From assembly GCF_023115425.1 (NCBI RefSeq), contig NZ_CP096032.1:1488001-1552000 (forward strand): a DNA stretch of 64,000 bases. Reading direction: 5' to 3'. Under the pieces are notes generated by a model, which saw only the letters and a list, made by a program, of their open reading frames with translations, searched no databases and had not been told where the DNA came from. Below are positions 2,987 to 7,200 of this stretch, piece after piece (position 1 is the stretch's first letter; the number at the start of each line of letters is the position of its first letter). This DNA comes from Synechococcus sp. A10-1-5-1. GTDB taxonomy: Bacteria > Cyanobacteriota > Cyanobacteriia > PCC-6307 > Cyanobiaceae. The translations under genes and the position numbers were made by a program.

Positions 2987-4813
2987 TTAACTATTGGGCG
3001 CTTCTGTGCCTTGGGCCTGGTGCTTCACCTCGCCCCCAAGGCCAAAGGCCTCGTGGATTACTTGGAGGGCTTTGATGCCCTCGCCTTCGGGCACCACGCA
3101 GCTTGTGCGGATCTCACTGGTGGCGATCATCTCGATGTTGATCTGAGCGTCAGCCAAGGCGCGGAACATCCGGCCAGCGGTTCCAGCGGTGCAGGGCATT
3201 CCAGCGCCGACAGCACTGATGCGCGCGATGGCCATCCCTTCTTCAAAGCTGGCCCCAGGCCATTGGTTCAGTAGCGGTTGCAGGGCAGCTTGGGCTCGGC
3301 TGAGGTCCTCGCGCTTGAGGCAGAAGCCCATGTCGCGGCTGAGCTGTTCGCCTGAGCCATGGGTGCGCTCGGACTGAACGATGGCATCCAGGCTCACGCC
3401 GGCGTCGGCCAGAGCTCGGCAGACCGCCGCCGCCGTTCCCGGCTTATCGGGAATGCGGCGCACGGCCACTTGGGCCTGATCACGATCGAGGGCCACACCG
3501 CGCACCTCCGGTTGCCCGGCTCCAGAGGGGGCGGGGTTGAGATGCAGCTGCCGCTCGCTCAGTTCAAAGCAGTGGGCTGCCGCCTGCAGGGCCTTATTGC
3601 CTTGATGTCCGGCGACCAGGCAGCTCACCTTGACTTCGCTGGTGGCGATCAGACGCAGGTTGATGCCGCCTTTGGCCAAGGTGTCGAAGAGGCGCGCGGC
3701 CACCCCGGGCCTGCCCATGATTCCCGCCCCAGCAATGCTGAGCTTGGCCATCCCGGCCTGGGTGCTCAGGGTGGCTCCGGCCGCCTTGGCATCCATGGCG
3801 TTCAAGACGCTCTGGCAGACCGCCTTGGCGTCCTCCAGTTGTGCCTCCGCCACCGTGAAGGCGATGTCGTTGCTGCTGCCTTCGTGGGTGGACTGCACGA
3901 TCAGATCCACGCTCAGGCCCGCATTGGAGAGCGCTTCAAACAGTTGAGCGGCGACCCCGGGGCGATCGGGAACATGGGAGAGCGCCAAGACCGCTTGATC
4001 GGTGTCCAGTTCTGCCCCATCCACGGGTTTGCCGAGCTCCAGTCCTTCGCCGCTACCGCGATGGCTGGTGCTGTCGCTGGTGAGCAGCGTGCCCGGTGCA
4101 TCGCTCCAGCTGGAGCGCACCACCAAGGGAACGCCGTAGTTCCGGGCGATCTCCACAGCGCGCGGATGCAAGACCGCCGCTCCGAGGCTCGCTAGCTCGA
4201 GCATCTCGTCGCAGGTCACCGTCTCCATCAATTGGGCATCGGCCACCTTGCGGGGATCGGTGGTCAGGACGCCTGGGACATCGGTGTAGATCTCGCAGGC
4301 ATCGGCCCCGATGGCTGCCGCCAAGGCCACAGCCGAGGTGTCGGAGCCGCCGCGGCCCAAGGTGGTGATCTCGGGAACGCCCGAGAGGCTGTTGCTGGTG
4401 CCTTGGAATCCGGCAACTACAACAACGTTGCCGTCATCGAGGAGCCTGCGGACTCGCTCGGTTTTGATTTCGAGAATCCGGGCTCGGCCGTGGGCCGATT
4501 CGGTGAGGATCCCGACTTGGGGACCGGTCATTGAGACCGCTGGAATGCCCTCGGCGTGCAGGGCCATCGAGAGCAGTGCGATCGAGACCTGCTCTCCGGT
4601 GGCCAGCAGCATGTCCATCTCCCGCTGGGGCGGGTTCCTGCTGATTGCCTGGGCGAGTCCGGTGAGTTCATCGGTGGTGTGCCCCATGGCCGACACCACG
4701 ATCACCAGATCGTTTCCGTCTTCCTTGCTGGCCGCAATGCGCTTCGCCACAGCCTGAATGCGCTCCACATCGGCTACGGAGGTGCCGCCGAATTTCTGGA
4801 CCAACAGGGCCAT
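2987..4813 (-). CDS. lysC: Aspartate kinase with four ACT domains
   Basis: Phosphorylates aspartate, the first step toward lysine, threonine, methionine and diaminopimelate. The kinase domain (about residues 1-235) opens with LVQKFGGTSV and includes ITTLGRGGSDTSA and YTDVPGVLTTDPR. It is followed by two pairs of ACT domains (for example VLALSHVPDRPGVAAQLF and VAVRRIPDKPGTAAAV), the arrangement known in cyanobacteria, where the ACT domains bind lysine and threonine for feedback control. The length is 608 residues from the ATG at 4813; a TTG at 4825 would add four. holA ends 32 bases upstream in the same direction. The gene marks the return to high-GC core sequence. Confidence 0.96.
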   Translation of the reverse strand: MALLVQKFGGTSVADVERIQAVAKRIAASKEDGNDLVIVVSAMGHTTDELTGLAQAISRNPPQREMDMLLATGEQVSIALLSMALHAEGIPAVSMTGPQVGILTESAHGRARILEIKTERVRRLLDDGNVVVVAGFQGTSNSLSGVPEITTLGRGGSDTSAVALAAAIGADACEIYTDVPGVLTTDPRKVADAQLMETVTCDEMLELASLGAAVLHPRAVEIARNYGVPLVVRSSWSDAPGTLLTSDSTSHRGSGEGLELGKPVDGAELDTDQAVLALSHVPDRPGVAAQLFEALSNAGLSVDLIVQSTHEGSSNDIAFTVAEAQLEDAKAVCQSVLNAMDAKAAGATLSTQAGMAKLSIAGAGIMGRPGVAARLFDTLAKGGINLRLIATSEVKVSCLVAGHQGNKALQAAAHCFELSERQLHLNPAPSGAGQPEVRGVALDRDQAQVAVRRIPDKPGTAAAVCRALADAGVSLDAIVQSERTHGSGEQLSRDMGFCLKREDLSRAQAALQPLLNQWPGASFEEGMAIARISAVGAGMPCTAGTAGRMFRALADAQINIEMIATSEIRTSCVVPEGEGIKALQVIHEAFGLGGEVKHQAQGTEAPNS

Positions 4814-4845
4814 GGGTGGGCGCAATTGCGGAATCGACGATTGTC

Positions 4846-5826
4846 CTATGGCGCCAGCAGAAACCCGTCGCGGAAGGCATCAACGGGGTCGGCTCCCCGC
4901 TTGAGGCTGGCTTCCACCTGCAGGAGCTGACTGAGCAGGGCGAGGAAGCGTTCGGGTTTGCGGCCTCGGATCTGTTTGCGCATCACGTAGATCCGTTTGG
5001 GATTGCCAATCCCGGCGGCCTTGGCGATGGCATTCACATCGTTTTCCCCTTGCTGATCCAGCAGGCTCACCCAGAGCCAACCCCGGATCTGCCCGCAGAG
5101 GGTGGCCACAATCCGCAGGGCCGGTTCATTGGCGGCCAGCAGGACATCCACCAGGGCTACCGCTTCGGCGGGTGCTCCCGCCAGGAGAGCATCACCCACC
5201 TGCAGCGCATTGGTGGCCTGGCCGCCAATCAGGGCTTCCACCGCTTGAGCGGTGATGGTTTGGTCTGCCCCGACATAGAGGGAGAGTTTTTCCAGTTCGC
5301 TGGCCAGCCTGGCGCTGTCGCTGCCGATGGCATCGCTCAATGCTTGGGCGGCGTCGGGCTGAAGTTTGAGCCCCAGCTCTTGGGCTGTGCGTAGCACCAG
5401 GTCCACCTGCCCGGATCCATCCCAGATCGCCGGCAGTTGAAAGCTGCGCTCCTTGGCCTCGCCGCTTTTGACCAGTTTTTGCAGGGCCTTGGTGGTCTTG
5501 AGCCGCCCATCCGGTTTGGCGGCGTTCACCAGCACCAGATGGCACTGCTCCGCCACCAGGTTCAGAGTGGCCTCCAGTTGCTCCGCTAGATCAGCCGGGC
5601 ACTGGTTGCAGAAGGGGCTGCGTTGCAACACGATCACGCGATCCCCCGCGCCAAAGGGGGCCGTTCGCGCTTCCTCCAAGGCTTGAGCGGCCTGGCTGGC
5701 ATCGTTGCCGTCCAGACGGCTGAGGTTGATGCTCTGCCAGGAGGGATCGACCTGGCTTTTGACCAGTGCTTCGACGGCCCGGCTGCGCGCGGCTTCGTCG
5801 TCGCCCCAGATCAGATGGATCGGCAT
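4846..5826 (-). CDS. holA: DNA polymerase III delta subunit
   Basis: Delta subunit of the clamp-loader complex, which opens the beta sliding clamp. The protein has 326 residues and the HolA layout: an N-terminal region starting MPIHLIWGDDE, a central degenerate AAA+ region (SDAIGSDSARLASELEKLSLY), and a C-terminal helical domain with NPKRIYVMRKQIRG and the LLQVEASLKRGADP segment. It overlaps the 3' end of the Phd-PIN gene by 16 bases and precedes lysC on the same strand, so the three are likely co-transcribed. Confidence 0.93.
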   Translation of the reverse strand: MPIHLIWGDDEAARSRAVEALVKSQVDPSWQSINLSRLDGNDASQAAQALEEARTAPFGAGDRVIVLQRSPFCNQCPADLAEQLEATLNLVAEQCHLVLVNAAKPDGRLKTTKALQKLVKSGEAKERSFQLPAIWDGSGQVDLVLRTAQELGLKLQPDAAQALSDAIGSDSARLASELEKLSLYVGADQTITAQAVEALIGGQATNALQVGDALLAGAPAEAVALVDVLLAANEPALRIVATLCGQIRGWLWVSLLDQQGENDVNAIAKAAGIGNPKRIYVMRKQIRGRKPERFLALLSQLLQVEASLKRGADPVDAFRDGFLLAP

Positions 5827-6515
5827 GGCAGCACGGGGTGCAGTGCAGTTTGTGCCAGATCTGCATCGGCTGTGACCAAGACAGCGACTTCGTTCTGAAT
5901 GGCCGTTGCCAGTTCGATGGCTTGGTTGAGCTCCAGCTCTGGTTCCTGTTGCTGGAGACGGCTTGCTGCCAGGGCGAGATCCCCATTCAGCGGCACCTGC
6001 CGCCAGTGCATTGGATTGGCAAAGGCGGCGTTGTAGCGCAAGGCCAGGGCTTCATCCCCCTGGCTCAGGGCAGCGTCCATGACGTCCATCAGGCTGATGC
6101 TGCTGATGACCCCTTGCCAGCTGCCCTGGGCGATGCCTTGAAGGACGGGCTCCAGCACCCGGCTGGTTTGTGGGTCGTCGTGCAAAAAGGCCGCAAGGGC
6201 ACTGCCGTCTAGGCCGATGCGGCTGCCGGGGCCTAATTGCCTGGCTTGGAAGCGGGCTTTTGCAGGGGCTCCCCCAGGCGCCCGCTGCTGTGCGCTGCGC
6301 TGCTGGGCACTTCCCTTGAGGCTCAGCAGGTTCTCCATCGCTTGTTGGCTGCTGGTGCCACCCGCCGCGTCCTGCAAAGGGACGATGGCCGCCAGATCAT
6401 GGCGGTGGCGTTGGATCACCAGCCGCTCACCCTTGGAGGCGCGAACCAGTAGTTCGGGGAAGCGCTGACGGGCCTCTTGCACTCCAAACCGCTCCACCCC
6501 AATTGCTCCAGCCAT
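5811..6515 (-). CDS. Single-chain Phd/YefM antitoxin-like plus PIN-domain fusion protein
   Basis: The 234-residue protein combines two modules normally encoded separately in type II toxin-antitoxin pairs. Residues 8-47 (FGVQEARQRFPELLVRASKG, then RLVIQRHRHDLAAIVPL) match the Phd/YefM antitoxin fold. A Gln/Ala-rich linker (about 55-95) follows. Residues 99-225 resemble a PIN nuclease: D103 in GLDGSAL, acidic residues in SLMDVMDAA (144/147), AIELATA (199-205) and TADADL (D217/D219). The usual third acid (the D of DAIHLATA) is Gln198 here, so nuclease activity may be weakened. It overlaps holA by 16 bases and diverges from cobH across 37 bases containing a palindrome. Fusion and assignments are inferred from motifs. 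Confidence 0.7.
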   Translation of the reverse strand: MAGAIGVERFGVQEARQRFPELLVRASKGERLVIQRHRHDLAAIVPLQDAAGGTSSQQAMENLLSLKGSAQQRSAQQRAPGGAPAKARFQARQLGPGSRIGLDGSALAAFLHDDPQTSRVLEPVLQGIAQGSWQGVISSISLMDVMDAALSQGDEALALRYNAAFANPMHWRQVPLNGDLALAASRLQQQEPELELNQAIELATAIQNEVAVLVTADADLAQTALHPVLPCRSI

Positions 6516-6527
6516 CGCTCTGTGCAG

Positions 6528-6537
6528 TCTGTACAGA
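6528..6537. promoter_or_regulatory. TGTACA-centred palindrome, candidate operator of the Phd-PIN gene
   Basis: The perfect 10-base palindrome TCTGTACAGA lies 13 bases upstream of the Phd-PIN start and 15 bases upstream of cobH. A wider repeat, CTCTGT (6518-6523) and ACAGAG (6533-6538), surrounds it. YefM/Phd-type antitoxins are known to bind palindromes with a TGTACA core in their own promoters, so an autorepression site is a reasonable inference; binding is not shown by sequence alone. Confidence 0.45.
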
Positions 6538-6552
6538 GTCTGTCAGCGGGGC

Positions 6553-7200
6553 ATGCTTGTCCCCATGGGATTCGACCATCCGATCTTCAGCGAGAGCCTG
6601 CGCTTGATCGAAGCGGCCTTGCCTGAAGGGACGTTGCAGGGTTTGTCGGTTTCCGAACGGGATGTGCTGCTGCGTTTGATCCACAGCAGCGGTGATCTGA
6701 GCTTGGTTCAGGGGGTGTCATTCTCAGATCAGGCTTGCGAGCTGGGTCTGCGCGCCCTCAGTGCCCAGGCGCCGATCCTGACGGACACCGCGATGGCGGC
6801 GGCAGCGGTGGCTCCGATGGCCCGGCGGACCTTCGGGAATGTGGTTCGCAGCGTGCTGGATTGGGCTCCTGATCGTGCCCCCGAGGGGGGGACCCGAGCG
6901 GCGGTGGGCATGCAGCAAGCCTTGAGCGCCCATCCCGGAGCGCTGGTTTTGATCGGAAGTGCGCCAACGGCTCTGGAGCTGTTGCTCGAGCAGGTCCGTA
7001 GCGGAGAGGTTGCCCCTCCTGCGTTGGTGATCGGGATGCCCGTCGGCTTTGTCGGTGTTGCTGAGAGCAAGGCCCATCTCGCGGCCAGTGAGTTGCCTCA
7101 GATCCGTTTGGACGGGAGTCGCGGTGGTGCCGGCTTGGTGGGTGCTGCGGTGAATGCTCTGTTGCGCCGGGCTTGGTTGGATCAGGCGGCGTCAGTTTGA
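6553..7200 (+). CDS. cobH: Precorrin-8X methylmutase
   Basis: Moves a methyl group from C-11 to C-12 in precorrin-8X, giving hydrogenobyrinate (CbiC does the equivalent in the cobalt-early route), in vitamin B12 synthesis. The 215-residue protein has [13 protein letters not shown] at the start, [15 protein letters not shown], the active-site-type segment [14 protein letters not shown], and a late [16 protein letters not shown] second in-frame ATG at 6565 is possible, but the first leaves a normal length. It diverges from the Phd-PIN gene, and its 3' end overlaps the convergent mutS by 19 bases. No cobalamin riboswitch fits in the 37-base upstream gap. Confidence 0.93.

Follow-up and report, generated by a model that had tools for sequence, protein, structure and literature searches.

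Synechococcus sp. A10-1-5-1 encodes, within the 64,000-nucleotide stretch of its genome analyzed here (hereafter the window), a single-chain protein in which a Phd/YefM antitoxin domain and a VapC-like PIN toxin domain are joined by a linker in one reading frame (positions 5811-6515, reverse strand, 234 amino acids, defined by the open reading frame and Pfam matches). We regard it as probable that this gene is a domesticated VapBC-type module, composed of Phd and PIN and now reduced to one chain, that has become an autorepressor of the holA operon without catalytic activity. The DNA-binding half of the antitoxin and its DNA target have been kept and the cutting site of the toxin has been worn; the protein is therefore probably a regulator rather than a poison. 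A single origin of the fusion, a common chromosomal slot, operator conservation, catalytic loss and selection on both folds are read from sequence comparison, and the protein would be expected to bind DNA, to repress holA and to lack nuclease activity.

The domestication of selfish toxin-antitoxin modules has often been argued and has seldom been observed stepwise. Here, one slot is found among close relatives in an empty state, occupied by two genes with an intact active site, occupied by a fused gene with an eroded site, or decayed, with an unchanged DNA target. The order of fusion, loss of catalysis and retention of DNA binding therefore becomes testable in culturable picocyanobacteria, in a case where a former toxin system now lies upstream of the essential replication gene holA. 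Our search of the openly searchable literature turned up no report of a Phd-PIN single chain.

The fusion protein and its domains

The reading frame opens with the ATG at 6515, the sole start codon upstream within the open frame, and closes with the stop codon at 5811-5813. Its Phd/YefM domain covers residues 8-70 (6306-6494) and is recognized by the Pfam profile PhdYeFM_antitox (PF02604) over residues 11-70, with an E-value of 2.4e-6 and a score of 27.7 bits (cut-off 29.8). The PIN domain extends over residues 95-230 (5826-6233) and is aligned by PF01850 over residues 102-224 (E-value 4.7e-4, 21.2 bits against a cut-off of 23.6). Because both scores lie 2-3 bits under the curated Pfam cut-offs, either half alone would be a weak call. 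The same-genus copies, the two-gene relatives and the structural match to VapC make both assignments secure. The antitoxin profile matches 17/17 same-genus copies (best E-value 3.5e-9) and the PIN profile 11/17 (best 1.1e-6). In the two-gene relatives, the Phd match reaches 31 bits and the PIN match of the split copies 48-55 bits, versus a maximum of 24 bits for the PIN half of the fusions among the scores listed. The AlphaFold model of the fusion has a mean pLDDT of 82, reaching about 90-97 over residues 91-230 and falling under 50 in residues 73-87 of the linker. A Foldseek comparison of this model with the PDB retrieved the VapC structure 7by2 (E-value 2e-5, TM by target 0.84) and further matches to VapC4, VapC20, VapBC15 and FitAB.

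The PIN fold of the VapC family is thus present, and the two separate genes of type II toxin-antitoxin systems are replaced by one frame in 45 genomes. The protein is VapBC-derived and single-chain, and no longer a two-gene toxin-antitoxin system. The fusion had been proposed in a first-pass annotation made from the sequence letters, and the profile searches, the AlphaFold model and the relatives confirm it. A frameshift or assembly artefact was rejected since complete single-frame copies occur in 45 independent genomes.

Distribution and origin of the fusion

A genus-wide search found the fusion in 16/25 genomes, the window genome included, and a profile search of 400 genomes of the family uncovered full-length fusions in additional genera. 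In the contig scan, the window protein alone used as query gave no match and the alignment used as query gave matches. The aligned set, to which the counts below refer, contains 46 complete single-frame fusions from 45 genomes; one genome carries two, and a locus fetched twice was counted once. Named records with the fusion belong to Vulcanococcus, Cyanobium, Synechococcus, Aphanothece and related, largely freshwater picocyanobacteria. A class-wide search beyond the family yielded no fusion; the PIN genes that it retrieved stand alone and have antitoxins of their own. Phage and plasmid records gave no match to the fusion, and there is therefore no sign of a mobile vehicle.

All fusions retrieved with their flanks lie upstream of holA, and they adjoin cobH where the contig is long enough. 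Three genomes, G170, G230 and G220 (loci L050, L051 and L057, respectively), carry a split pair in this same cobH // X-holA-lysC slot, in which a Phd antitoxin of 78-86 amino acids is directly followed by a PIN protein of 147-149 amino acids, the genes being adjacent or overlapping. Two-gene homologues also occur outside the slot (L145, L146, L148 and L150). With stand-alone cyanobacterial PIN toxins as the root, a PIN tree places the three split pairs on the earliest branches and unites all fusions in a single clade (100/99). The fusion is consequently most likely of single origin, and the two-gene pair of the slot most likely represents its ancestral state. In the holA tree, G230, which has the two-gene pair, is sister to the fusion-bearing G208 (L072), which suggests that the locus has also been exchanged or replaced between lineages. 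The first-pass annotation had named two outcomes that would speak against a fusion, a C-terminal half without a significant PIN match and homologues encoded by two genes. The PIN match proved significant. Homologues encoded by two genes were indeed found, but as ancestors, with full-length fusions conserved beside them. These same-locus ancestors, the single origin and the operator described below had escaped that annotation.

A conserved putative operator

Every fusion (46/46) carries R16 and R36, presumably the counterparts of YefM R10 and R31, with which they were matched by eye. The targets of YefM repressors are TGTACA palindromes in pairs, spaced 12 bp, and YefM cannot bind them without R10 and R31 (PMC4803016, PMC7730913). 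A putative operator, TGTACAGACTGCACA, lies 6-20 nt upstream of the ATG of the window gene (6521-6535, reverse strand) and differs by one mismatch from the consensus TGTACA-N3-TGTACA. It forms the centre of a 21-bp imperfect palindrome, CTCTGTACAGACTGCACAGAG, and is the single site of the window genome with at most one mismatch to TGTACAGNCTGTACA.

The pattern GTAC-N5-GTAC, usually as TGTACA-N3-TGTACA, was found upstream of 52/52 slot copies, a set including fused, split and two frameshifted genes; 48 of these sites are perfect and four carry one mismatch. For 44/52 copies a perfect site is no more than 200 nt upstream, against 0.05% of shuffled upstream sequence, and the remaining perfect sites are located 210-410 nt upstream. 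Several genomes display four tandem TGTACA-like units with a 9-bp period. The palindrome is preserved even where the surrounding DNA has diverged. An alphaproteobacterium, a myxobacterium and the burkholderial Zeimonas arvi have two-gene relatives preceded by the same arrangement, and a gammaproteobacterial two-gene pair is accompanied by TGTACA/GTAC repeats. This conservation lends indirect support to autoregulation by the fusion. In cyanobacterial LexA boxes, four bases separate the GTAC half-sites. A LexA box was rejected for the putative operator, which has five bases between its half-sites and is a single site at one mismatch or fewer in the window genome.

Erosion of the active site and selection

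The PIN proteins of the split pairs carry the canonical D/E/D/D acids, in the motifs IDxAPLIY (D), TLAE (E), PDAxQL (D) and [ST]HDxDF (D). This VapC set is incomplete in the window protein, which reads D103/D144/Q198/D217. Among the fusions, site 1 (D103) is Asp in 43/46 and Glu in 3/46. Site 2 (144) is Glu in 3/46 and Asp only in the window copy, being otherwise mostly Arg or Thr. Asp is absent from site 3 (198) in all 46, and site 4 (217) carries Asp in 23 fusions, His in 17 and Asn in five. Glu occupies residue 201, on the next turn of the site-3 helix, in 44/46 fusions and Asp in 2/46; the three split copies and distant two-gene relatives all have Gln there. The fusion was probably accompanied by a loss of catalysis, two of the four PIN acids having gone. 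Q198, from which the first-pass annotation rightly drew a hint of reduced activity, proves to be one instance of a general loss at site 3. Its expectation of conserved acids holds for D103; D217 is kept in only half of the fusions and D219 in 4/46.

The linker (residues 71-94, 6234-6305), delimited by the alignment of fused and split copies, pLDDT and ratios of nonsynonymous to synonymous substitution (dN/dS), evolves fast. In that alignment it takes the place of the C-terminal tail by which the two-gene antitoxin binds the toxin. After GSGRxxW this tail forms a helix ending in RxxW in the two-gene proteins and is a variable Pro/Ala/Gln segment in the fusions, which thus lack the toxin-neutralizing C-terminal segment of the Phd/YefM family. 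The window copy also lacks the Trp of the G-x-G-[KR]-x-x-W motif. Pairwise dN/dS values mostly range from 0.04 to 0.2 in the Phd half and from 0.04 to 0.3 in the PIN half, where one very close pair gives a higher, unreliable value, and rise to 1.2 in the linker. By this measure both folded halves are under purifying selection.

Proposed mechanism and alternative explanations

Sequence comparison shows that a two-gene Phd-PIN pair residing between cobH and holA fused in one lineage, two of the four catalytic acids being lost and the DNA-binding half and palindromic operator being retained. In the scenario that we propose, the fusion would use its Phd half to bind, as an oligomer, the TGTACA-N3-TGTACA site of its own promoter, and would repress the transcript that carries itself, holA and probably lysC. 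The PIN half would no longer cut RNA and would serve as a built-in co-repressor and dimerization module, a role modelled on that of the toxin in VapBC-DNA complexes. Since the two halves are covalently held at 1:1, there would be no change in the toxin:antitoxin ratio, by which repression is normally tuned, and a constant autorepressor would stand in place of an addiction module. Fusing the halves should abolish ratio-dependent autoregulation, and the protein offers a direct test of that model.

Several observations weigh against this interpretation. The palindromes of the putative operator are spaced 9 bp centre to centre, versus 12 bp in YefM-YoeB, and no sigma-70-like promoter was found near the operator in the interval searched (6480-6700). 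The near-invariant Glu201 could, with D103, still make a metal site, and the window copy retains an acid, D144, at site 2. In addition, at least seven relatives have a broken or deleted gene and most of the family shows an empty slot, which indicates that the fusion is dispensable.

One alternative is a remodelled, active PIN nuclease in which Glu201, replacing the lost Asp198 as metal ligand, could rebuild the active site and an altered activity would be tied to DNA binding. The switch from Gln in the split copies and distant two-gene relatives to Glu or Asp at residue 201 of every fusion fits this idea, as do the prevalence of D103 and the presence of D144 and D217 in the window copy. However, the other two acids vary, site 2 being mostly Arg or Thr and residue 217 D, H or N, and the close relatives of the window copy carry T or Q at 144; we consider such a nuclease unlikely. 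Another is a slowly decaying remnant, a toxin-antitoxin module without its toxin that persists mainly by its position upstream of an essential gene. It is in line with the empty slot of about 35 examined genomes and with the damaged copies, which comprise deletions (G006, G007, G185, G242), frameshifts (G029, G196) and a short remnant (G150). The low dN/dS of both folds, complete frames in 45 genomes and an operator kept where flanking DNA has diverged speak against it, and we find this explanation quite improbable.

The least credible of the alternatives in our estimation, and a very improbable one, is a self-inhibited nuclease resembling EzeT, whose N-terminal half would restrain an active PIN until the linker is cut. 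EzeT demonstrates that single-chain toxin-antitoxins exist (PMC4803016), and the PIN fold is intact, under purifying selection and endowed with a conserved D103. Against this, site 3 has lost its Asp in 46/46 fusions and site 2 its Glu in 43/46, the helix following G-x-G-[KR]-x-x-W has given way to the fast-evolving Pro/Ala/Gln linker, and the motif Trp is missing from the window copy. The first-pass annotation had offered a self-inhibited nuclease, a domesticated toxin and a regulator keeping the PIN fold as options. The latter two are supported, and the nuclease is disfavored because two of the four acids are lost and the neutralizing antitoxin tail is gone. A domesticated, catalytically dead autorepressor remains our preferred reading.

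Comparison with known systems

The fusion resembles two-gene type II VapBC systems of the Phd/YefM-VapC kind in both domains, their order, the LxGSGRxxW end of the antitoxin domain and the GTAC-N5-GTAC operator. It differs from them in being one gene, in having lost the antitoxin tail and two of four PIN acids, and in occupying one chromosomal slot. With YefM-YoeB and Axe-Txe it shares the Phd/YefM fold, paired TGTACA core palindromes and invariant counterparts, on our by-eye match, of R10 and R31. It departs from these systems by its PIN instead of RelE/YoeB toxin half, by palindromes 9 rather than 12 bp apart and by its single chain. The E. coli zeta protein EzeT likewise combines an N-terminal antitoxin half and a C-terminal toxin half in one polypeptide (PMC4803016). 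However, the folds are unrelated, the toxin half of EzeT is active when freed whereas the site of the fusion is eroded, and no autoregulation of EzeT is known. In Pseudomonas aeruginosa, the inactive plasmid toxin-antitoxin system MtvTA is described as a non-toxic pair whose complex binds promoters and acts as a regulator (PMC11826091). Unlike the fusion, it consists of two genes and is plasmid-borne. The first-pass annotation had hinted at PIN being an unusual partner for a Phd antitoxin; this view does not hold, as Phd-PIN pairs are common, with several hundred in Makarova 2009 (PMC2701414).

Genomic neighborhood

On the strand of the fusion follow holA, encoding the DNA polymerase III delta subunit (4846-5826, reverse strand, NCBIfam TIGR01128, 1.3e-53), and the aspartate kinase gene lysC (2987-4825, reverse strand, NF005656, 3.4e-279). 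The start of holA and the stop of the fusion overlap by 16 nt, an overlap that takes the form TGATG in several relatives, and holA and lysC are 20 nt apart. From this overlap and short gap we infer co-transcription and translational coupling of the three genes. The first-pass annotation had stated transcription with holA and lysC outright; gene order, overlap and gap make it likely. The slot is bounded by the divergent precorrin-8X methylmutase gene cobH (6553-7200, forward strand, NF004620, 1.2e-48, under the curated cut-off), which is the neighbor in nearly all slot loci and beyond which, upstream of the fusion, lies mutS.

In about 35 genomes without the gene, cobH adjoins holA, mostly at 10-200 bp, and a few hold unrelated genes. 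In fusion-less genomes of genus g6 (L208, L210, L214, L218), other genes separate cobH from holA, one insert being an opposite-strand frame that resembles a sugar-nucleotide epimerase. Locus L230 (G108) contains a different Phd and PIN pair, of the LLDTHALLWWLAEP type, in the cobH-holA slot, which may therefore attract toxin-antitoxin modules. Independent deletions of the fusion have left a 116-amino-acid in-frame stump in L054 (G007), the last 50 residues in L053 (G006) and a copy without the Phd half in L055 (G185). In L086 (G029), the frameshifted PIN part reads in frame into holA with no stop, which could reflect a PIN-HolA read-through product or an assembly error.

Dispersed palindromes in relatives

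Exact additional TGTACA-N3-TGTACA sites beyond the slot are present in 32/45 intact-fusion genomes versus 3/39 genomes without the gene (Fisher p 1.8e-9), and a reversed control pattern gave near-zero counts. In a Cyanobium-like genus, many of these sites occupy orthologous intergenic positions across genomes. When kinship is taken into account, five well-supported independent pairs remain, with 3.6 for the association and almost none against (p 0.125). Because shared ancestry weakens the statistics in this way, the dispersed palindromes are only a lead. One apparent exception, G332, shows no holA and is 88% complete, so its slot may be missing from the assembly. That the sites mark other Phd loci was rejected for the 20 sites read, around which no Phd gene was evident, no profile search having been made there. 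The window genome was rejected as a member of such a regulon, its other four sites having two mismatches, which is about chance by our own estimate; the lead therefore concerns the relatives. It is possible, and we advance it tentatively, that the fused regulator without catalysis controls, besides the holA operon, a few dispersed intergenic palindromes in several related genera. If true, the series would be a fossil record of how an addiction module turned into a regulator that has targets of its own.

Dispersed intergenic palindromes were also seen individually in G211, G199, G135 and others (L170-L189, L231-L250), where counts per genome track the presence of the fusion. In G211, some extra sites are the centres of long perfect palindromes. 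Some dispersed sites sit in perfect palindromes of about 40 bp, whose arms differ yet are self-complementary.
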